Source: a virus
DNA: 20,596 bases
IMG/VR virus record: IMGVR_UViG_3300032268_000121
Location: 1 to 20,596 of that record
Strand: one strand, 5' to 3'
Shown: in pieces, positions 7,023 to 14,762 of the stretch
Layout: each line of letters begins with the position of its first letter
How positions within the stretch are numbered: position 1 is the first letter of the stretch
The notes under the pieces: generated by a model
Told to the model about the DNA's origin: nothing
What the model saw: the letters and a program-made list of their open reading frames with translations, nothing else
Database searches by the model: none
Position numbers and translations under genes: made by a program

Positions 7023-7237
7023 TTGATTACAACCTCCGCTTGTGTTTCGATCCATACCCTAGCACCACACGATAGTGGTTTATCAGCTGAGTATACTACC
7101 TTGCTTTCTCCCTTGATCTCTACCTCATTGGCATACTTGTTATCCTTGTAAGTCTTAACTGTTAGCACTGGATCATTCGTTCCATTCTTAGCATTCGCTT
7201 TCACTACATGCTGGTTTACATGGATGATAGTCTTCAT
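7019..7237 (-). CDS. Conserved-looking small phage protein, 72 aa
   Basis: The sequence begins MKTIIHVNQHVVKANAKNG, with VLTVKTYKDNKYANEVEIKG and a KPLSCGARVWIET segment, a beta-rich pattern I associate with small uncharacterised phage proteins found near primase-helicase genes. No function is known to me. Its ATG overlaps the primase-helicase stop (ATGA), with AGGAG 8 nt upstream. Its stop overlaps the cysteine-rich peptide start. Confidence 0.75.
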   Translation of the reverse strand: MKTIIHVNQHVVKANAKNGTNDPVLTVKTYKDNKYANEVEIKGESKVVYSADKPLSCGARVWIETQAEVVIK

Positions 7238-8922
7238 AGGTTATTCTCCTCTGGTGGTAACTCTGACATACGACCTGTCATCCTATTGTACAACAACCGA
7301 CATGCTAACCCAGTCAACCCACTGAATCGATTCTTAAGGATACGCACATAAGTAGTGTTCCTCTCCATCGCATCAGTATGCTGCCCATTACGCTCTAATC
7401 CTATCACCATGTCACTGAGCTGAGCGATTGCACCTGACCCCCTTAGCTGTGCCAGTGAAGTCGCTGCACCCTCCTCATGCCCCTTAGATTCAGGACGCTT
7501 GAGGTGAGACACCACGAACAAACTAATGCCTGTCTCTTGCACCAGCATACGAAGCTTCGTCATGATCTCATCGATTGCCTTACGCTCGTCTCCTGACTCC
7601 TGAGCACTTACAATAATACTGATATGATCAACGAAAATATATTTGCAATCCAAGCCCCTAGCCATAAACCGCACACGATTGACAATGTTATCAACGGAAG
7701 TGCTACCAAAATGATCAAACAAATACAGCCTATCTGTTCCAAGTGTTCTATTAAACGCATCTTTTATATCCTCATCTGTTGCCTCACAATCAGGCAGGTG
7801 TAGTGGTTTGTTTGCTGCCAATGCCATCAATGATTTTGCTGTCTTCTTTACTGACTCCTCCAGGAACATGAGTCCAATATTATCTTCTGTCTTACTGAGT
7901 ATCTGCCACACAATCTCCCGCAAGAACTGAGACTTACCTAGTCCTGATCCTGCAGTCACTGTTACTAACTCACCTAGTCTGATACCGTAGGTTAGATCAT
8001 TGATCCCCTCGTAGGGATACATTACTTCTGCCTTCTCCTCTGCTTGGTTAACTAGATCCCACAGCGTAGAGCCTGATACAATCCCGTCGGGTACATACTT
8101 CTCTGCATTCCACCATGTATCCACGAACTCCTTCGTCTTACTCGTAGACAAGTAGTCGCATGCATCCTTGAGATCCTTGGTAGGGTACTTGAAGATGTGT
8201 GCCTTAGCACCAAACAATTCTGCTACCTGATTCGCTGCTTGCTGCCCAGGTTCATCGTTATCAAAACAGATTACAATCTTCTCGAAAGAATCCAAGTACT
8301 CGTAACTGGCACGACAATCCTTCAATGCTGCTGACGCACCGTTACGAACAGACACCACTGGAAACCGTGAGCCTGTCAACTGATAGACTGCCAGTGCATC
8401 GAACTCACCCTCGGTAATCGTGATAGCCCTGCCACCTGGAGTGAACTTGCTCTGCCCGAACATGGTCGCACTCTTCCAGTCACCCTGTACACTGAACTCC
8501 TTCGCAGTCATAGACCTAGTCTTGGCTGCTACAGTCTTTCCTGCTGCATCGCAATATGGAAAGTAGTAATTCTTACCGTCTGATCCTGCACCAAAGAAGT
8601 GCATAGTTGCTTTACTGATACCACGCTCTGCAACATGGACTGCCTCTGTGTTTTTAAATACCTCTAGGACTTGCATAGAGCCTCGCTGTTGAGTTTGTTT
8701 ATCTAGGTAGATACCTAGCCCTTCCATGTCTTCCATCGTCGCTCTAGGAGCTGCTATACGAGTGTGACACACATGGCAATACTGGTGACCATCATCGTAT
8801 AGTGAATTAGCATCACTAGACCCACAATTATTACATGGTATATGCTTTAAGAAATTTGATTCTACGCTACCCACGGCATCTCCTCTTGGCTTTCCTGCCT
8901 CTTCATCCGTAAGTGATAGCAT
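7234..8922 (-). CDS. Bifunctional DNA primase-helicase (T7 gp4-like)
   Basis: The 562-aa protein (T7 gp4 is 566) unwinds DNA and lays primers at the fork. The N-terminal zinc finger is PCNNC...YCHVC (Cys30, 33, 49, 52). The TOPRIM primase core has TEGEFDAL (Glu171) and CFDND (Asp221, Asp223). The RecA-like helicase has Walker A GSGLGKS (325-331), Walker B IFVDH (429-433), SHLKRP (472-477) and RGSGAIAQLSDMVIGLERN (494-512) with a likely arginine finger. The C-terminus ends ELPPEENNL, acidic but without the terminal Phe of T7 gp4. GGAGG is 10 nt upstream. The start lies inside a 56-aa gene in another frame. Confidence 0.96.
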   Translation of the reverse strand: MLSLTDEEAGKPRGDAVGSVESNFLKHIPCNNCGSSDANSLYDDGHQYCHVCHTRIAAPRATMEDMEGLGIYLDKQTQQRGSMQVLEVFKNTEAVHVAERGISKATMHFFGAGSDGKNYYFPYCDAAGKTVAAKTRSMTAKEFSVQGDWKSATMFGQSKFTPGGRAITITEGEFDALAVYQLTGSRFPVVSVRNGASAALKDCRASYEYLDSFEKIVICFDNDEPGQQAANQVAELFGAKAHIFKYPTKDLKDACDYLSTSKTKEFVDTWWNAEKYVPDGIVSGSTLWDLVNQAEEKAEVMYPYEGINDLTYGIRLGELVTVTAGSGLGKSQFLREIVWQILSKTEDNIGLMFLEESVKKTAKSLMALAANKPLHLPDCEATDEDIKDAFNRTLGTDRLYLFDHFGSTSVDNIVNRVRFMARGLDCKYIFVDHISIIVSAQESGDERKAIDEIMTKLRMLVQETGISLFVVSHLKRPESKGHEEGAATSLAQLRGSGAIAQLSDMVIGLERNGQHTDAMERNTTYVRILKNRFSGLTGLACRLLYNRMTGRMSELPPEENNL

Positions 8923-9032
8923 GAATAGATATCCTCCATCACCCTATCGACACCGTACAATTGAATGAAGTCTACTGCATCCTGGATCATGAAGTGGTAG
9001 ACCATCTCTTCACTATGTTTGTTGCAACTCAT
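8862..9032 (-). CDS. Small protein overlapping the primase-helicase start, 56 aa
   Basis: The frame begins MSCNKHSEEMVYHFMIQDAV and continues with DFIQLYGVDRVMEDI, then a tail ending EEMPWVA. It has AAGGTG six bases before the ATG, a strong site, and is the first gene after the promoter at 9128-9156. Its last 61 nt overlap the primase-helicase in a different frame, so ribosomes finishing it pass the gp4-like start. I recognise the general pattern of a small helical phage protein upstream of primase but not a function. Confidence 0.7.
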   Translation of the reverse strand: MSCNKHSEEMVYHFMIQDAVDFIQLYGVDRVMEDIYSCYHLRMKRQESQEEMPWVA

Positions 9033-9070
9033 GTTGTTCACCTTATTAGTTAACTACTTAGATACTTATA

Positions 9071-9112
9071 TAAAAAACAATAATATATAAATCTACTTAA
9101 GACTACTTAGTA
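9071..9112. repeat. Copy A of a 42-nt composite element (13 + 9 + 20 nt)
   Basis: TAAAAAACAATAA (9071-9083), nine unrelated bases, then CTACTTAAGACTACTTAGTA (9093-9112). The same two blocks with the same 9-nt gap and the same plus-strand orientation recur at 12972-13013. CTACTTA occurs twice in the 20-mer ten bases apart, and a further CTACTTAG sits at 9054-9061. Copy A lies in the leader of the minus-strand primase-helicase transcript. Confidence 0.85.
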
Positions 9113-9128
9113 TAACTCTATAGTTATA
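9111..9128. repeat. Inverted repeat at the transcription start of the primase promoter
   Basis: TATAACT (9111-9117), a 4-nt loop CTAT, then AGTTATA (9122-9128): perfect 7-bp arms. Its right end touches the -10 of the minus-strand promoter at 9128-9156, so it spans roughly -7 to +10. That is where an operator or a 5' RNA hairpin would sit. Confidence 0.6.
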
Positions 9129-9156
9129 GTATAACACTATTCGCTATATATGTCAA
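9128..9156 (-). promoter_or_regulatory. Sigma70-like promoter TTGACA-17-TATACT
   Basis: On the minus strand TTGACA (9156-9151) is followed after 17 nt by TATACT (9133-9128). It lies in the 3' end of the zinc-finger gene and reads toward the 56-aa gene and primase-helicase, giving a leader of about 90 nt that contains the 42-nt element. Confidence 0.8.
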
Positions 9157-9364
9157 CCCCATTCCCCATATCATCACACAAAAAAGTGTCGTCTTCCAAT
9201 TCGTCTTCATTGCCATCAAATAAGTCGTATCTTTCTTCTGCATATAAGTCATCCTTGATTGTTGAGTAACACTTGTTGCACATGTCTAAGAACTCACCAG
9301 TCGTTGCACTCTTACGGGTAGACTCAAAGTCGTTTAGGTTTTTATCGCAGCAATAGCATCTCAT
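9137..9364 (-). CDS. Small zinc-finger protein with acidic tail, 75 aa
   Basis: The N-terminus reads MRCYCCDKNLNDFESTRKSA and then GEFLDMCNKCYS: two CxxC knuckles (Cys3/Cys6 and Cys29/Cys32; Cys5 is extra) forming a probable zinc ribbon. The C-terminal half is strongly acidic (DGNEDELEDD). Similar short CxxC...CxxC proteins are common in T7-like and related phages, with unknown roles. AGGAG is 10 nt from the ATG, which overlaps the preceding stop (ATGA). The primase promoter is embedded in its last codons. Confidence 0.8.
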   Translation of the reverse strand: MRCYCCDKNLNDFESTRKSATTGEFLDMCNKCYSTIKDDLYAEERYDLFDGNEDELEDDTFLCDDMGNGVDIYSE

Positions 9365-9549
9365 AATATGGAATCTCCTAGTACTGTATACGCTTTAATG
9401 TATACATTGTCTTTTAACTTCTTCTTAAATACTTTAATTGTTTCTATCTTCAGTGATCTGTCTAGTGCTAAGAACTTCTCTGCTTCTTCCTTGTAACTAA
9501 AGATCCTGATAACACTACCATCTGTCTCTATAATCTTATACAATTTCAT
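9361..9549 (-). CDS. Hypothetical small basic protein, 62 aa
   Basis: The product begins MKLYKIIETDGSVIRIFSYK and has a helical EEAEKFLAL segment, then a Lys-rich stretch (KVFKKKLKDN). No family recognised. GGGGAA lies about 6 nt before the ATG. It is the first gene after the promoter at 9583-9611, with a leader of about 27 nt. Confidence 0.7.
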   Translation of the reverse strand: MKLYKIIETDGSVIRIFSYKEEAEKFLALDRSLKIETIKVFKKKLKDNVYIKAYTVLGDSIL

Positions 9550-9582
9550 ATCGTTCCCCTGGCTATAGCAATGTACACATGT

Positions 9583-9611
9583 ATTGTAAAGTATATTGCA
9601 GTGATTGTCAA
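9583..9611 (-). promoter_or_regulatory. Sigma70-like promoter TTGACA-17-TACAAT
   Basis: On the minus strand TTGACA (9611-9606) and TACAAT (9588-9583) are 17 nt apart in the short gap between the 70-aa and 62-aa genes. It would drive the 62-aa and zinc-finger genes and could read on into primase-helicase. Confidence 0.75.
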
Positions 9612-9633
9612 TAGATACTTAATAAATTTATCT

Positions 9634-9846
9634 TCACTCATCCTTGTAGTCTCCAGCAATGAACTGGTCTGTAGTGATACCCCTCTTCTTAGCCTCCTGC
9701 GTGATCCATACGGCTTCATCGTAGTGCTCTTGATACTTAGCCCTTACCGCAGGATCAACAGGCTCTACAGCCCTGCATTTCAGTCTGTTACCGCCTACTC
9801 TATTGGCTTCATGAATCCCTGCTAGTGCTTTATGTAAGTAACTCAT
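9634..9846 (-). CDS. Hypothetical protein, 70 aa
   Basis: The sequence begins MSYLHKALAGIHEANRVGGN and ends with a helical DEAVWITQEAKKRGITTDQF segment and an acidic tip (DYKDE). No family is recognised. AAAGGA lies about 7 nt upstream, at the end of the 54-aa gene. It is one of a run of small early genes. Confidence 0.7.
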   Translation of the reverse strand: MSYLHKALAGIHEANRVGGNRLKCRAVEPVDPAVRAKYQEHYDEAVWITQEAKKRGITTDQFIAGDYKDE

Positions 9847-9849
9847 AAC

Positions 9850-10014
9850 TTAATCCTTTGACTGTTCAATAAATTGTTTAACTGAATCCATCTCATCCTT
9901 GGTAAAGATACATCGATACTTATTCTCAGTAATCAGTAACTCATCCGCATAAGTCCTGGCTTCCTGGTAAGTATTAAACCCTTTACCATCTACATAAAAA
10001 TTAAACTCACTCAT
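9850..10014 (-). CDS. Hypothetical small protein, 54 aa
   Basis: The frame reads MSEFNFYVDGKGFNTYQEAR, TYADELLITENKYRCIFTKD and a helical EMDSVKQFIEQSKD tail. GAGG with a purine-rich run precedes the ATG, which overlaps the stop of the 47-aa gene (ATGA). The pattern (short beta strands, then a helix) resembles other tiny proteins in this run, but no function can be assigned. Confidence 0.65.
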   Translation of the reverse strand: MSEFNFYVDGKGFNTYQEARTYADELLITENKYRCIFTKDEMDSVKQFIEQSKD

Positions 10015-10154
10015 TTTCCACACCTCTCTAACATATCAATTGCATCTGATAAATTAACTAGTCCATCTTCTATTAACAGCGCATCATCATCATTGCTGCC
10101 TTCTAAAATTTCTCTATATGCTTGCCTCAATAATTTCATTGCTTGCTCTTTCAT
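10011..10154 (-). CDS. Hypothetical helical protein, 47 aa
   Basis: MKEQAMKLLRQAYREILEGS, then an acidic NDDDALLIEDGLV loop and a helical LSDAIDMLERCGK end. It has a near-perfect ribosome binding site (GGAGG, 5-nt gap) and its stop overlaps the next ATG. Two helices joined by an acidic turn; function unknown. Confidence 0.65.
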   Translation of the reverse strand: MKEQAMKLLRQAYREILEGSNDDDALLIEDGLVNLSDAIDMLERCGK

Positions 10155-10155
10155 C

Positions 10156-10461
10156 TTACCCTCCAACATGAATGAATTTAAAATGATCTTTAATAAATTG
10201 TTGCGTCTCTTTTATTGCTTGCTTGCGTATCTGATTTAATTCAGTGGCAATTGCATGCCCTTCTATATCCTTGATCCAACCGCCACCATACCACTGCTCT
10301 TGACCAGGATGATAGTCTATATCTATTTGATTCTCTCCCCATGTAATACTAAAACACTTACCGCCTTGCTTTAAATACTCTCCCAGTGTACGCATGATTA
10401 CCGCCTTGCTAGGTTTGCGCTTGTGATATTCAATTTCAATTGTTGGATACATTGTGCTCAT
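10156..10461 (-). CDS. Hypothetical protein, 101 aa
   Basis: The protein has a beta-like N-terminal half (TIEIEYHKRKPSKAVIMRTL), a compact aromatic/glycine middle (FSITWGENQIDIDYHPG, then WYGGGWIKD) and a C-terminal amphipathic helix (LNQIRKQAIKETQQFIKDHF). AAGGG is 8 nt upstream and the start overlaps the previous stop as ATGA; Met4 is a second possible start. The family is not recognised. Confidence 0.7.
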   Translation of the reverse strand: MSTMYPTIEIEYHKRKPSKAVIMRTLGEYLKQGGKCFSITWGENQIDIDYHPGQEQWYGGGWIKDIEGHAIATELNQIRKQAIKETQQFIKDHFKFIHVGG

Positions 10462-10658
10462 TGTTTAATCCCTTCATTAAATGATTCATTAAAAGAATCC
10501 ATATCTTCTGTATTTTGTGCGTCGTCTACATAACATAAGTCAGCACTAAACCCTATCCGTATTCTATCACACTCTTCCGTTATGCTGTTAATAATTTTAT
10601 CTGCCATCTCGCTATCACAATCTACCCCATCAAAATCCAGTGCTAGATATACTCTCAT
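10458..10658 (-). CDS. Hypothetical acidic protein, 66 aa
   Basis: Begins MRVYLALDFDGVDCDSEMAD and ends in an acidic, Asn-rich DMDSFNESFNEGIKQ tail. The start LALDFDGVD resembles the DxD loop of haloacid dehalogenase proteins, but the protein is far too short for that fold, so no enzymatic call is made. AAGGG is placed 8 nt before the ATG, and both ends overlap neighbours. Confidence 0.65.
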   Translation of the reverse strand: MRVYLALDFDGVDCDSEMADKIINSITEECDRIRIGFSADLCYVDDAQNTEDMDSFNESFNEGIKQ

Positions 10659-10825
10659 GATATGATCCCTTCATTTAATAATTGGTTTAATGTTCTACCA
10701 AAAAATCCCTGCAGTTGATACCCTAATTTTGTATCGTGCAAGTATTGCCATGCTTCTATTACTTGCTCTTCCGATTCTGCTTCAATGAATCCTTCTGCTA
10801 ATCCCACTGCCGTATAATTATCCAT
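10655..10825 (-). CDS. Small conserved-looking phage protein, 56 aa
   Basis: The product is MDNYTAVGLAEGFIEAESEE followed by QVIEAWQYLHDTKLGYQLQG and FFGRTLNQLLNEGIIS. The AVGLAEGFIE...AWQYLHDT...YQLQGFFGR pattern is one I associate with small phage proteins of unknown function. GAGGG is 7 nt upstream. Its initiation region (GGGAATGATCATGGA) is nearly identical to that of the gene before it. Confidence 0.75.
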   Translation of the reverse strand: MDNYTAVGLAEGFIEAESEEQVIEAWQYLHDTKLGYQLQGFFGRTLNQLLNEGIIS

Positions 10826-10827
10826 GA

Positions 10828-10977
10828 TCATTCCCTCTCTGCTTTATCTAAAGTAATTAATTCGTAACACTCTTCAACAGTATCAAAACAATCCTTCCCT
10901 TCTAATGATTCTAGATAATCCCGTTCAGGATCTAGCACCATGAATCCTATACTGTTTTTGATAATCTCGTATTCCAT
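10828..10977 (-). CDS. Hypothetical small acidic protein, 49 aa
   Basis: MEYEIIKNSIGFMVLDPERD, then YLESLEGKDCFDTVEECYEL and a short tail. It is a probable beta-hairpin followed by a helix, similar in layout to the 54-aa protein at 9850. The initiation region is AAGGGAACGATCATGGA. No function is known. Confidence 0.65.
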   Translation of the reverse strand: MEYEIIKNSIGFMVLDPERDYLESLEGKDCFDTVEECYELITLDKAERE

Positions 10978-10987
10978 GATCGTTCCC

Positions 10988-11632
10988 TTATTTGATTGAT
11001 TGAATCTTAATTACTTTTGCCATCTTGATACCATGCGCCTTATAAGCAATCACTGGTACATCCTTATTATAACACGCTCTACATCCATTGCATTTACCAT
11101 CATGCTGGTATGCCTGGCACTCTACCGCTCCGACTGGTACTGTATCGCTAAATATGGTGCTAGTAGTTTGCCCTTGAATGATCTCACCATTAACACTATC
11201 GCTAGAGAATCTTACCACTACATTAGGCAATGCCATCATGGAATCGATTGTATGCTGAAATTTAATAAATTTATGCATTCTAGTCGGTAACCAGTGCTTA
11301 CAATGCGGAGTCTTTTCCATGACTGCTAGAATCTTAATCGCTAGGCTTAGATCATACATATCACCACTATCAAACCATCTAAAATATCTGCTAGAGTCTA
11401 AAGCCTGTACCATATCAGATACCCATGAATCCCGCTTCCAGTCTTCCCTATTAAATTCCCTTGGCTTCTTAACATTAGCGAAGCGATAGTTTCCCGTCGT
11501 CGCATAACATCCTTGGCATGCTGGTACTAGACCGCCATTACCATCACTACTACCAGGACAAGTGTCAATCGCTTGTAATGACCATGACATAATCCCATCT
11601 AGTTTACTTGTTTTACTTAGTTTGATGGACAT
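10988..11632 (-). CDS. GP88-family phage protein (cysteine-rich)
   Basis: The 214-aa product matches the phage GP88 family as I remember it: KTSKLDGIMSWSLQAIDTCP at the start, LVPACQGCYATTGNYRF (35-51), YFRWFDSGDMYDL (83-95), PHCKHWLPTRMHKF (109-122), NVVVRFSSDSVNGE (137-150). It ends with C-x2-C-x2-C (Cys181, 184, 187). Eight cysteines (25, 39, 42, 111, 172, 181, 184, 187) suggest iron-sulphur or zinc binding. The family's biochemical role is unknown to me. GGGG is 6 nt before the ATG, and it overlaps the upstream gene by 16 nt. Confidence 0.85.
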   Translation of the reverse strand: MSIKLSKTSKLDGIMSWSLQAIDTCPGSSDGNGGLVPACQGCYATTGNYRFANVKKPREFNREDWKRDSWVSDMVQALDSSRYFRWFDSGDMYDLSLAIKILAVMEKTPHCKHWLPTRMHKFIKFQHTIDSMMALPNVVVRFSSDSVNGEIIQGQTTSTIFSDTVPVGAVECQAYQHDGKCNGCRACYNKDVPVIAYKAHGIKMAKVIKIQSIK

Positions 11633-11808
11633 ACATTACCCCTATAAAAATTTAATGGTTTTGTTTTAGCATTAGTTTGATCGTTTTGTTTTTTCCGTCC
11701 GTCAATCTTACTAATGATTGTCATGCCTTCATTGAATTGTGCCATATAACGGGCTTCCTTCAATGTCTTATATTTAAACTGTTTACCATTTACTGTAAAA
11801 GCATACAT
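11617..11808 (-). CDS. Hypothetical basic protein, 63 aa
   Basis: MYAFTVNGKQFKYKTLKEAR, then a YMAQFNEGMTIISKI segment and a Lys/Asn-rich tail (GRKKQNDQTNAKTKP). GGAGGG lies 6 nt upstream. It is the first gene after the promoter at 11834-11862 and runs 16 nt into the GP88-family gene. A small beta-hairpin-plus-helix protein is likely; function unknown. Confidence 0.7.
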   Translation of the reverse strand: MYAFTVNGKQFKYKTLKEARYMAQFNEGMTIISKIDGRKKQNDQTNAKTKPLNFYRGNVCPSN

Positions 11809-11833
11809 ATTAAACCCTCCGTCGTTGATAATA

Positions 11834-11862
11834 AATATACTCTAGGATTTTGAACCAGTCAA
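11834..11862 (-). promoter_or_regulatory. Sigma70-like early promoter TTGACT-17-TATATT
   Basis: On the minus strand TTGACT (11862-11857) is followed after 17 nt by TATATT (11839-11834). It reads toward the 63-aa and GP88-family genes and the run of small genes. Its -35 lies between the arms of an inverted repeat (11842-11874). Confidence 0.75.
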
Positions 11863-11874
11863 GTAAAACCCTAG
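11842..11874. repeat. Inverted repeat CTAGGATTTT ... AAAACCCTAG over the early promoter
   Basis: Arms at 11842-11851 and 11865-11874 are 10 bp with one mismatch, separated by 13 nt. They bracket the -35 box and part of the spacer of the promoter at 11834-11862. The CCTAG/CTAGG half-sites recur at the next promoter upstream, suggesting a regulator's operator. Confidence 0.55.
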
Positions 11875-11889
11875 ATATAATTACTACAA

Positions 11890-12075
11890 TTAACCTACAA
11901 TCAATATTTCCAATACTCTTAATTGCTCTAATCGTCTAGTCAAATAATCTTCAATATATGGTTTATCAATTTCAGCAACAATCTTATCCTTCTCATTGCC
12001 TATCAAATTCCACAATAATACTCGTTCATCCCTAGTTAATGCAATATTCATTTTATCTTGCAGTTTGCGATCCAT
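11890..12075 (-). CDS. Hypothetical helical protein, 61 aa
   Basis: MDRKLQDKMNIALTRDERVL, then LWNLIGNEKDKIVAEIDKPY and a helical LTRRLEQLRVLEILIVG end. It looks all-helical and could be a small DNA- or protein-binding factor, but no motif shows this. GGAGG sits only 4 nt before the ATG. It is a single gene behind the promoter at 12095-12123. Confidence 0.65.
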   Translation of the reverse strand: MDRKLQDKMNIALTRDERVLLWNLIGNEKDKIVAEIDKPYIEDYLTRRLEQLRVLEILIVG

Positions 12076-12094
12076 ATATCCTCCATTAGTTTTA

Positions 12095-12123
12095 ATAATA
12101 CCCTAGTCAACTGAATCAGTCAA
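12095..12123 (-). promoter_or_regulatory. Sigma70-like early promoter TTGACT-17-TATTAT
   Basis: On the minus strand TTGACT (12123-12118) and TATTAT (12100-12095) are 17 nt apart. It drives the 61-aa gene with a short leader of about 15 nt. The spacer and -35 are covered by the CCCTAGT/ACTAGGG inverted repeat. Confidence 0.75.
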
Positions 12124-12129
12124 CTAGGG
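12101..12129. repeat. Inverted repeat CCCTAGT ... ACTAGGG over the early promoter
   Basis: Perfect 7-bp arms at 12101-12107 and 12123-12129 with a 15-nt centre. The element runs from the -10 edge across the -35, the position of a steric operator. Similar half-sites flank the promoter at 11834-11862, and a related ACCCTATA palindrome occurs at 12450-12469. Confidence 0.6.
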
Positions 12130-12136
12130 CAAACCC

Positions 12137-12394
12137 TTACCCTTCCCAGACTGTAAGTCTACCAGGATTTTGCCATTCAGCATATAATCCACAAGTATTC
12201 AATACCTTAGTAATCTTAGGGTTAATTCCAAAATCCCAGCCTGGTATTCTATAACCATCATAATAATCAGCCCATATCTCAGATGAATCCCTTTCGGTAC
12301 TGATACTGAAATTACCTTGATCGTCTGCATGCTGATAAACTGGACAACCTAATTTTTCTAAGGTATTAAATGCCTTGATATATTTACGCTTCAT
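12137..12394 (-). CDS. Small conserved-looking phage protein, 85 aa
   Basis: The first gene of the leftward block. The product begins MKRKYIKAFNTLEKLGCPVY, continues QHADDQGNFSISTE and has a SEIWADYYDGYRIPGWDFGI segment with a YAEWQNPGRLTVWE end. I recognise the WADYYDG...PGWDFG...KITKVL...LYAEW pattern as a widespread uncharacterised phage family. AAAGGA is placed about 8 nt before the ATG. No clear promoter with good boxes was found directly upstream. Confidence 0.75.
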   Translation of the reverse strand: MKRKYIKAFNTLEKLGCPVYQHADDQGNFSISTERDSSEIWADYYDGYRIPGWDFGINPKITKVLNTCGLYAEWQNPGRLTVWEG

Positions 12395-12449
12395 TTTTAT
12401 TTCCTTTCCTGAGTTGATGAGTCTATTGTAACAGCATTTAAGATATTGT

Positions 12450-12537
12450 ATATAGGGAAAACCCTATATTTTGATTGATTGTTACTATCGAGATGATAGT
12501 TAAATACTATGCAGAGTGTCACTACTCCGTACACTCT
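12450..12537. repeat. Three consecutive hairpins
   Basis: First: ATATAGGG, AAAA, CCCTATAT (12450-12469), perfect 8-bp arms. Second: ACTATC, GAGAT, GATAGT (12484-12500), 6-bp arms. Third: AGAGTGT and ACACTCT (12513-12519 and 12531-12537) with an 11-nt loop. The first resembles a weak bidirectional terminator or an operator; none is followed by a strong T tract. Confidence 0.55.
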
Positions 12538-12606
12538 CTAGTACTTTTGTCAATAGGTATTTTCCCTAATTGACTTTATAATATTTTTATGTATGGGGGA
12601 GGGGCT

Positions 12607-12634
12607 TTGACACAGATTGTAGCGTATATATATG
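12607..12634 (+). promoter_or_regulatory. Possible weak promoter TTGACA-16-TATATG
   Basis: TTGACA (12607-12612) is followed after 16 nt by TATATG (12629-12634). It is the only plus-strand candidate found that could transcribe the tandem repeat and the foldable segment at 12792-12872. The -10 is imperfect and the flanking TATA repeat makes a chance match plausible. Confidence 0.3.
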
Positions 12635-12663
12635 CTCCAGTACACCTAAAAAGTGGAATTAAG

Positions 12664-12703
12664 ACTGCCTAATAATTAAGCAAACTGCCTAATATTTAAG
12701 CAA
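12664..12703. repeat. Tandem 20-bp repeat, two copies
   Basis: ACTGCCTAATAATTAAGCAA (12664-12683) is followed immediately by ACTGCCTAATATTTAAGCAA (12684-12703), with one mismatch. Two helical turns per unit is typical of protein-binding iterons. Confidence 0.8.
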
Positions 12704-12791
12704 CTATAGTAATAGACAATATGTTCAATGTAATCAATGAGTTATGTTAGTGTAACTTAACAACAGAAGACACCATAATAAAGGAAGTTAA

Positions 12792-12872
12792 ATAGGGACA
12801 GAGTCATTAGCTGCGGAATATGTGCAAGCTCGTCTCACCAGACCCGCAGGAGTAGACACTTAGTCTCCCTAT
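12792..12872 (+). ncRNA. Candidate structured RNA with two competing stems
   Basis: ATAGGGA (12792-12798) pairs perfectly with TCCCTAT (12866-12872), closing a domain. Inside it CTGCGG (12811-12816) pairs with CCGCAG (12844-12849), capped by GTCT/AGAC (12832-12835 and 12840-12843); a short GAC/GTC stem is at 12855-12865. An alternative hairpin TCCCT-ATAG-AGGGG (12866-12879) uses the same 3' strand, so the two forms exclude each other. It is not a tRNA (no T-arm or anticodon arm). It is an RNA only if transcribed; the DNA inverted repeats could instead be protein sites. Confidence 0.35.
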
Positions 12873-12907
12873 AGAGGGGTTCATAAGGAAGATAAGTAAA
12901 ATAAAGC

Positions 12908-12936
12908 TTGACAAATCTAAGAAGTTGTGGTATAAT
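12908..12936 (+). promoter_or_regulatory. Consensus sigma70 promoter for the packaging/head operon, TGTGGTATAAT class
   Basis: TTGACA (12908-12913), 17 nt, TATAAT (12931-12936), with TGTGG before the -10 giving an extended -10. Expected start is about 12943, leaving a leader of about 135 nt before terS that contains copy B of the 42-nt element. Confidence 0.9.
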
Positions 12937-12971
12937 AGTTGTACTAAGAAGAAGACTAAGAGCAAACTAGG

Positions 12972-13013
12972 TAAAAAACAATAAGAACCAAAACTACTTA
13001 AGACTACTTAGTA
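12972..13013. repeat. Copy B of the 42-nt composite element
   Basis: TAAAAAACAATAA (12972-12984), nine bases, then CTACTTAAGACTACTTAGTA (12994-13013), matching copy A at 9071-9112 in both blocks and in spacing. A further degenerate unit CTATTTAG follows at 13016-13023. It lies in the terS leader. Confidence 0.85.
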
Positions 13014-13078
13014 AACTATTTAGTATGAAACTTTAAGTTTATTTTATTTTGTTCTCTGCGATAGCAGGTAAAGGATAT

Positions 13079-13519
13079 ATGTCTCAAGATGATAAGGATT
13101 TGTCTTCTTTAAAAGTGGATGTCTCCAATGTAATAGCCCTAGCACCACAGACTCGTAGGAGAGGTCGTCCTCCTAAGTCACTTGTGGAGGCGAAGAAGAA
13201 GCCAGGAAAAGTAGGTAGACCAGTAGGTGATGCAGGACGAATCCAAGAGTTTAAAGCTAGACTATTATCAACGAGTGGTACGAAAGTAATTGATACTGTA
13301 CTCCGTAAGGCATTAGATGATGACGATAAAGATCAAGTAGCTTGCCTCAAGATGTGTATGGATAGATTATTACCCACATCATTATTTGAGAAAGATGCTA
13401 AAGGACAACGTAATGCAGTAACGATTAATATTACTGGATTAGGTGAAACTAAAGTAGAAGCAATAGAAGAGATTGATGCTGAGATAATCGATTATACTGA
13501 GGTTGATAATGAATCTTAG
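13079..13519 (+). CDS. Terminase small subunit (predicted), with AT-hook-like motifs
   Basis: The 146-aa protein lies directly before the large terminase, the usual place for TerS, which recognises the genome for packaging. The N-terminal part carries RRRGRPPK (26-33) and GKVGRPVG (43-50), two AT-hook-like minor-groove motifs. A helical region follows (FKARLLSTSGTKVIDTVLRKALD, with KMCMDRLLPTSLFEKD further on), then a TINITG beta end of the kind seen in phage TerS proteins. The start is the ATG at 13079 with AAAGGA close by; the open frame extends to a TTG at 13049 without a comparable site. It overlaps terL by 11 nt. Confidence 0.75.
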   Translation: MSQDDKDLSSLKVDVSNVIALAPQTRRRGRPPKSLVEAKKKPGKVGRPVGDAGRIQEFKARLLSTSGTKVIDTVLRKALDDDDKDQVACLKMCMDRLLPTSLFEKDAKGQRNAVTINITGLGETKVEAIEEIDAEIIDYTEVDNES

Positions 13520-14762
13520 TTTCGAGTTACTACCTTGGCAGAAAGAAGTATTCCAAGATAAGACTAGGTTTAAAGTTATTGTTGCTGGACGACGATGCGG
13601 TAAATCAAGATTATCTGCTGTAGCATTATTAGTAGAAGGACTACGTTGCCCACAAGGTTCTGCTGTAATGTATGTCGCTCCTACTCAAGGACAGGCTAGA
13701 CAGATTATCTGGGATGTCCTGATGGATTTAGGAAGAGAAGTTATTCAGAGTAGCCATGTTAATAATATGGATATCACTTTGATTAATGGTGCTAAGATAT
13801 ATGTTCGAGGTGCTGATAGACCAGATACCCTTCGAGGGGTCAGCTTAACATACCTAGTATTAGACGAGGTAGCTGACATTAAACCAGATACCTGGGAGAA
13901 GGTCTTAAGAGCTGCTCTTTCAGATAAGAAGGGTTCTGCATTATTTATTGGAACTCCTAAAGGAAGAAACTGGTTCTACGATATGTACAACCTGGGTGTC
14001 TCTGAAGAAGATGAAGAGTGGAAGGGTTGGCACTTCACTACCAAAGATAACCCACTGATTGATCCTAAAGAGATCGATGGTGCAAGAAAGACATTAAGTA
14101 GCTTCTCATTCAAGCAAGAGTATGAAGCTTCGTTTGATAATGCAGGTACAGACCTGTTTAAAGAACAATGGATTAAAGAAGGCGAAGAACCAAGTAACGG
14201 AGTATGGTATATTGGTATCGACTTAGCAGGATTCACCAACACCAATTATTCGGCAGCTCGTCAGCAAAAGTTAGATAAATCTGCTATTGCAGTGGTCAAG
14301 GTGACGGATGATGGTGAATGGTGGGTAAAGAAGATAGAGAATGGTAGATGGGATGTCAAGGAGTGCGCTGAGCGTATTCTAAAGAACATTAGAGACTTCC
14401 AACCAATCGCTGTAGGGATGGAGCGTGGTACAGTTAGAAACGCTGTGTTGCCCTATCTAAGCGATCTGATGAGGGCTAACAACACCTACTGTCATATCAC
14501 TGATCTTACGCATGGTGGTAAGCAAAAGACTGAGCGTATTGTCTGGGCATTACAAGGACGATTCGAGCACGGTAAGGTAACACTGAATGAAGATGAGGAC
14601 TGGAGGGAATTCCAAGACCAGCTTCTAATGTTCCCTACCAACCAGGTGAAGGATGACTTAGTGGATGCTCTGTCATTCATTGATCAGCTGGCAGTAACTA
14701 CCTACTTCATGGATGACGGTGAAGATGAATATGAACCAACCGATTTTATATCAGGATACTAA
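13509..14762 (+). CDS. Terminase large subunit (packaging ATPase-nuclease)
   Basis: The 417-aa motor pumps DNA into the prohead and cuts it. The ATPase half has Walker A GRRCGKS (27-33), Walker B YLVLDE (115-120) and the coupling motif FIGTPKG (146-152). The RNase H-like nuclease half has IGIDLAG (Asp238), GMERG (Glu306) and DDLVDAL (Asp386) as probable metal ligands. The start at 13509 has GAGG six bases upstream; an in-frame TTG two codons earlier is less likely. Gene order TerS-TerL-protease-portal differs from T7, where the terminase genes are late and separate, so this module is not T7-derived. Confidence 0.95.
   Translation: MNLSFELLPWQKEVFQDKTRFKVIVAGRRCGKSRLSAVALLVEGLRCPQGSAVMYVAPTQGQARQIIWDVLMDLGREVIQSSHVNNMDITLINGAKIYVRGADRPDTLRGVSLTYLVLDEVADIKPDTWEKVLRAALSDKKGSALFIGTPKGRNWFYDMYNLGVSEEDEEWKGWHFTTKDNPLIDPKEIDGARKTLSSFSFKQEYEASFDNAGTDLFKEQWIKEGEEPSNGVWYIGIDLAGFTNTNYSAARQQKLDKSAIAVVKVTDDGEWWVKKIENGRWDVKECAERILKNIRDFQPIAVGMERGTVRNAVLPYLSDLMRANNTYCHITDLTHGGKQKTERIVWALQGRFEHGKVTLNEDEDWREFQDQLLMFPTNQVKDDLVDALSFIDQLAVTTYFMDDGEDEYEPTDFISGY

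Follow-up and report, generated by a model that had tools for sequence, protein, structure and literature searches.

Palindromic unit arrays at the replication and terminase promoters of an uncultivated phage group as putative shared operators

Gene organization and promoters of the window

The window, which is the whole stretch of DNA analyzed here, represents an entire virus record of 20,596 b with a GC content of 41.7%. Its leftward genes encode a T7-like primase-helicase, a family A DNA polymerase, an exonuclease, and an SSB-like protein (weak match), and its rightward genes include TerL and an SU10-like portal. The replication operon is driven by a predicted sigma70 promoter on the minus strand, designated P_prim (9128–9156), which consists of TTGACA (9156–9151), a 17-nt spacer, and TATACT (9133–9128), with a predicted +1 at about 9121. 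A 56-aa ORF (8862–9032) and the primase-helicase gene (7234–8922, minus strand) are the first genes after P_prim. The gene designated zn (9137–9364, minus strand) is located just upstream of this promoter, overlaps its −35 element, and encodes a 75-aa zinc-finger-like protein with a CxCC...CxxC pattern. The terminase (late) operon is driven by a second predicted sigma70 promoter on the plus strand, P_ter (12908–12936), in which TTGACA, 17 nt, and TATAAT occur with 0 mismatches and the predicted +1 lies at about 12943. The first genes after P_ter are putative TerS and TerL (13079–14762, plus strand), with the TerS ATG at 13079. We judged the gene preceding TerL to be a putative TerS from its position and an AT-hook-like RGRPPK motif; a family match was absent for this candidate. 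Both promoters are conserved in relatives, and all start sites given here are predicted positions.

Relatives of 38–41 kb have the same layout as the window, plus a class II ribonucleotide reductase-like gene recognized by its sequence alone, and no phage RNA polymerase was recognized among their listed genes. The closest isolated phage, as judged by the primase, is Pelagibacter phage HTVC115P (51% identity). A megablast search of the region against isolated phages gave zero matches, and a host search with TerL in bacterial genome contigs gave no match. The habitat of the phage is, by loose inference, of the freshwater type.

The 42-nt repeat and its palindromic units

The initial annotation of the window described a 42-nt element shared by the leaders of the two operons, and both copies are present, at 9071–9112 (TAAAAAACAATAATATATAAATCTACTTAAGACTACTTAGTA) and 12972–13013 (TAAAAAACAATAAGAACCAAAACTACTTAAGACTACTTAGTA). 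They lie on the same strand and are 88% identical to each other. The extra units claimed to flank them were also found, at 9054–9061 (CTACTTAG) and 13016–13023 (CTATTTAG). When the 20-nt block of the repeat was searched for with ≤3 mismatches, the window contained 2 matches, compared to 0 in 100 dinucleotide shuffles. As had been noted, the two transcripts run in opposite directions, because P_prim reads the minus strand and P_ter the plus strand, so that one leader contains the element in sense and the other in antisense orientation.

The repeat is better described as an array of palindromic ACT-N4-AGT units, such as ACTACTTAGT, ACTCTATAGT, and ACTTCTAAGT, which have fixed arms and a free centre and are spaced 10–13 bp apart. 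At P_prim, the palindromic unit ACTCTATAGT (9115–9124) lies over the predicted start site and is followed by ACTACTTAGT (9102–9111) and a degenerate unit, TCTACTTAAG (9092–9101), 10 bp from the next unit. An AT-rich spacer (9063–9091) containing the A-tract TAAAAAACAATAA (9071–9083) separates these units from the distal unit ACTACTTAGA (9053–9062). At P_ter, a half-unit series (12943–12971) begins at the predicted +1 and comprises ACTAAG (12943), ACTAAG (12955), and ACTAGG (12966), the first ACTAAG being nearly invariant. It is followed by an AT-rich spacer (12972–12992), again with TAAAAAACAATAA (12972–12984), and by a unit array (12993–13024) composed of ACTACTTAAG (12993), ACTACTTAGT (13003), and ACTATTTAGT (13015). 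Both arrays are located directly downstream of near-perfect sigma70 promoters, and the window's four other sigma70 promoters are without an array.

The number of exact units per leader far exceeds that in dinucleotide shuffles, with means of 1.95 vs 0.16 for P_prim and 2.05 vs 0.24 for P_ter. In the window and two further genomes (G1 and G2), unit clusters are found at P_prim and P_ter only, and one genome (G4, also G004) has one extra, weaker unit triplet besides those at the two promoters. In the same genome (locus L034), amplification of the degenerate unit has produced six tandem CTACTTAAG copies that precede the last unit and repeat exactly every 10 bp.

Other elements are conserved near the arrays. 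Upstream of P_ter, the window contains a highly conserved 36–38-nt element, TGCGGAAYAYGTGC...AGACCCGCA (12812–12850, TGCGG...CCCGCA), of which 30 distinct forms were found, all in this position relative to P_ter. Its outer TGCGG/CCGCA arms can pair, the inner stem is inconsistent, and no match was found in Rfam; a packaging, origin, or RNA signal is possible. Between the early genes and P_ter (12590–12710), a conserved G-run, GGGGGAGGGG, is followed by ACACCTAAAAAG and then by the repeat pair CTGCCTAATAATTAAGCA / CTGCCTAATATTTAAGCA. The GC-skew minimum of the relatives lies nearby, and this region may be a stronger candidate for an origin or packaging site than the array is. In addition, a small conserved hairpin, CTGC-GATA-GCAG (13056–13067), is located just 5′ of the TerS ribosome-binding site, TTCTCTGCG(A/T)TAGCAGGTAAAGG.

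Conservation of the units at the two promoters

An exact search of IMG/VR identified the 20-nt block in 41 further stretches, and alignment of the flanks placed every copy in a primase-type and/or terminase-type leader. In loci with both copies, these lie on one strand, about 3.5–4.8 kb from each other. The block is present in both leaders of two of the three longest records, and the third, G004, retains only a diverged terminase leader. The copies persist at the same two promoters in relatives with 82–100% identical TerL, whereas other intergenic sequence varies. Neither of the outcomes that the initial annotation had named as contrary to its claim, namely many scattered single blocks or loss of the blocks in close relatives, was observed.

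A composite of two blocks in fixed spacing and orientation was borne out in the window's clade, but the AT-rich block and the units are reshuffled elsewhere; in the L080/L093 clade, for example, a multi-unit P_prim cluster is located on the far side of the AT-rich block. Because the order of the block and the units shifts among clades, fixed spacing and orientation are features of one clade, and a rigid composite with a fixed 9-nt gap was rejected as a general rule. The gap had been called non-conserved. It does differ between the two leaders, but within each leader it is conserved across close relatives (TATATAAAT in primase leaders and GAACCAAAA in terminase leaders), and it does not vary within a leader class, with a slightly longer gap in other clades. 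The A-tract block TAAAAAACAATAA, together with the AT-rich sequence around it, is present in both leaders and in several clades and absent from distant zn-bearing loci; in the distant relatives, the start-site unit alone remains.

To describe this unit, we collected, from every locus retrieved, the promoter directly following the conserved zn gene (P_prim set, 47 distinct sequences) and defined the start-site unit as ACT-N4-AG[T/A] or CTANNTAG with its centre 5–9 nt after the −10 box. It is present in 33 of the 47 sequences, several others contain a near-match, and it reaches relatives whose zn protein is about 60–70% identical. The centres vary (ATAT, CTAT, ATGT, ACGT, CTAG, TTAG, and others), and the ACT/AGT arms are constant. 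As a control, the same loci provided 638 distinct promoter-like sequences; a start-site unit is present in 39, of which 34 are P_prim. The units at other promoters amount to 5 of roughly 590, one being zn's own promoter in L170 and four lying elsewhere. Since the surveyed sequences share ancestry, these counts show consistency and not independent trials. Repeated palindromic sites at a promoter, as in an operator array, are accompanied at P_prim by a position that is fixed relative to the promoter elements across relatives; at P_ter, the window's clade has no more than a half-site (ACTAAG) at the start. A start-site palindrome, TATAATATTACTATACAGT, was also observed in an otherwise different Manatee Spring phage (L211, MW202796.1), at a minus-strand promoter at 1378 that points toward the terminase genes.

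The two leaders also change together. Both contain ACTACTTAAGACTACTTAGTA in the window's clade, ACAACTTAAGACTACTTA or a one-base variant in L079 and L119, and ACTCCTAAGT in L069 and L120. The leaders of one genome have more 9-mers in common than permuted pairs do (10.3 vs 7.9, p = 0.0007, not corrected for ancestry), and common ancestry contributes to this sharing. A joint change of the leaders would be the outcome expected from a common binder or from gene conversion.

Proposed function of the arrays and candidate binding proteins

We propose that the arrays are probably operators for one common regulator acting on the replication and late operons together. This DNA-binding protein, likely dimeric, would recognize ACT-N4-AGT, and neighbouring units would be bound cooperatively. 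The protein would cover the start site and the first transcribed turns at P_prim (replication genes) and P_ter (terminase and structural genes), and block initiation or stall early elongation. Both gene blocks would thereby remain off or limited until the protein is lost, titrated, or replaced. The A-tract AT-rich segment between the two unit groups may introduce a DNA bend that helps both groups to be bound jointly (looping). The regulator is most likely a repressor or roadblock, rather than an activator, as a unit over +1 and units in the first 20–90 transcribed bases are where such a protein would be expected to act. It could be an early phage protein or a host factor. Because the units are palindromic, the array can work in either orientation, which would account for its opposite sense in the two leaders. 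The DNA-level role suggested at the outset is thus favored, in the form of regulator binding, by the invariant arms of the palindrome, the tandem period of a helical turn, the fixed place relative to the −10 box, and the near-restriction of the units to P_prim and P_ter.

Similar arrangements are known. Tandem operators are present at phage promoters in lambda OR/OL with CI and in the Arc/Mnt system, and the arrays described here resemble them in having short tandem palindromes at a promoter, near-helical spacing, and few sites per genome. However, the present units lie at or after +1 of two distant divergent promoters, and the unit ACT-N4-AGT is different. The met boxes of MetJ are ribbon-helix-helix operator arrays with an 8 bp unit, AGACGTCT. 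As with MetJ, the number of short palindromes, which would be read cooperatively, is variable and expandable, as in L034; the unit here is 10 bp instead of 8 bp, and no ribbon-helix-helix protein was found among the window proteins scanned. The C-boxes, which are operators of the controller (C) proteins of restriction-modification systems, are paired ACT/AGT-like palindromes, a likeness to the present units that extends to a possible downstream roadblock, but the spacing differs, and no restriction-modification system or C protein was seen here. The small DNA-binding controller protein C.Kpn2I, when bound downstream of a promoter, can obstruct elongation as a roadblock (PMC6237814). In cluster A mycobacteriophages, one phage repressor recognizes repeated stoperators, which are also located in transcribed intergenic DNA (PMC9283540). 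The likeness to the present arrays lies in the repeated sites in transcribed intergenic DNA and, as proposed here, in the single regulator. Stoperators are asymmetric, number >20 per genome, and depend on orientation (PMC9283540), whereas the present units are palindromic, form two clusters, and differ between the clusters in orientation relative to transcription; many asymmetric sites oriented with transcription were not found. In a limited literature search, no description of the array was found for this phage group, and a search on Zobellviridae promoter palindromes returned nothing relevant.

The initial annotation also considered origin iterons. In such a model, an initiator would bind the repeats beside an AT-rich unwinding region and transcription from P_prim or P_ter would prime synthesis. 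An AT-rich block, present in the genus-level group, does adjoin tandem 10-bp repeats beside the primase-helicase gene, and a cumulative GC-skew minimum lies within a few kb. However, the unit position follows the −10 box within a few nt, two arrays of equal kind are present per genome with one at the late operon, and the start-site unit is kept in distant relatives without the AT-rich block. The skew minimum is nearest to P_ter, in a divergent intergenic region, and coincides with the change in gene direction; therefore, it is not decisive on the origin. Since the sites track promoters, we consider it improbable that the arrays are an origin. An RNA leader element (a hairpin, attenuator, or mRNA stabilizer), which had been disfavored from the start because the two transcripts contain opposite strands of the repeat, is very unlikely. 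The first and last units of P_ter transcripts can pair, with a mean fold z-score of −1.8, but P_prim leaders fold like shuffles (mean z +0.16), the z-score of the window's P_ter leader is −1.06, and unusual RNA stability is not a consistent feature of either leader. Conserved structure with compensatory changes was not seen, as the arms lack such changes while the centre varies freely, and an Rfam search of the leader element gave no match. Two long similar copies in one genome could also result from a recent, functionless duplication of a leader segment, which is hardly credible given their persistence at the same promoters amid varying intergenic sequence, as described above.

In another version of the operator model, the phage would have recruited the signal of a host regulon, e.g., one for stress or nutrient state. 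Both promoters resemble ordinary host sigma70 promoters, and a clear phage DNA-binding regulator was not found in the small conserved proteins scanned; in contrast, diverse relatives have retained the unit, and its position is linked to the phage gene zn. We regard a host factor as a plausible option, though less probable than not.

Within the shared-operator model, zn is one candidate regulator of the arrays. It is present in 25 of 25 genomes compared and in at least 563 IMG/VR loci, has an acidic tail and an invariant core (MRCxCC...TRK...LDMCNxCY), and corresponds to PHROG 10364, for which no function is annotated. The isolated OM43 phages MEP401 and MEP402 encode a relative of zn, and none of their promoter-like sequences has a start-site unit; zn alone is therefore no predictor of the array. 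Family scans gave no DNA-binding assignment for zn, no clear HTH or ribbon-helix-helix emerged when the small conserved proteins were scanned against Pfam and PHROGs, and PDB profile searches for a candidate binder returned nothing credible. The structure models of zn and its 62-aa neighbour (9361–9549), with pLDDT 53 and 62, were too poor for searching. A 70-aa early-region protein in genome G004 (L049 5495–5707, minus strand) has a weak sigma-70 region 4 / HTH-like match. It is doubtful, although conceivable, that zn or its 62-aa neighbour represents an undescribed class of phage regulator that binds ACT-N4-AGT arrays and coordinates the replication and late promoters. If true, this class would span a large set of uncultivated phages without a recognized phage RNA polymerase.

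As a putative cis-regulatory element, the array is conserved and well supported, and it belongs to a known general kind. The two arrays would form a single point of control over the replication and late operons in a widespread uncultivated phage group, and they supply a precise 10-bp site that can be tested, along with two promoters ready for reporter assays. If the binder were identified, the master regulator of the group would be known and one of its many small uncharacterized proteins would gain a function, or else a host signal read by the phage would come to light.
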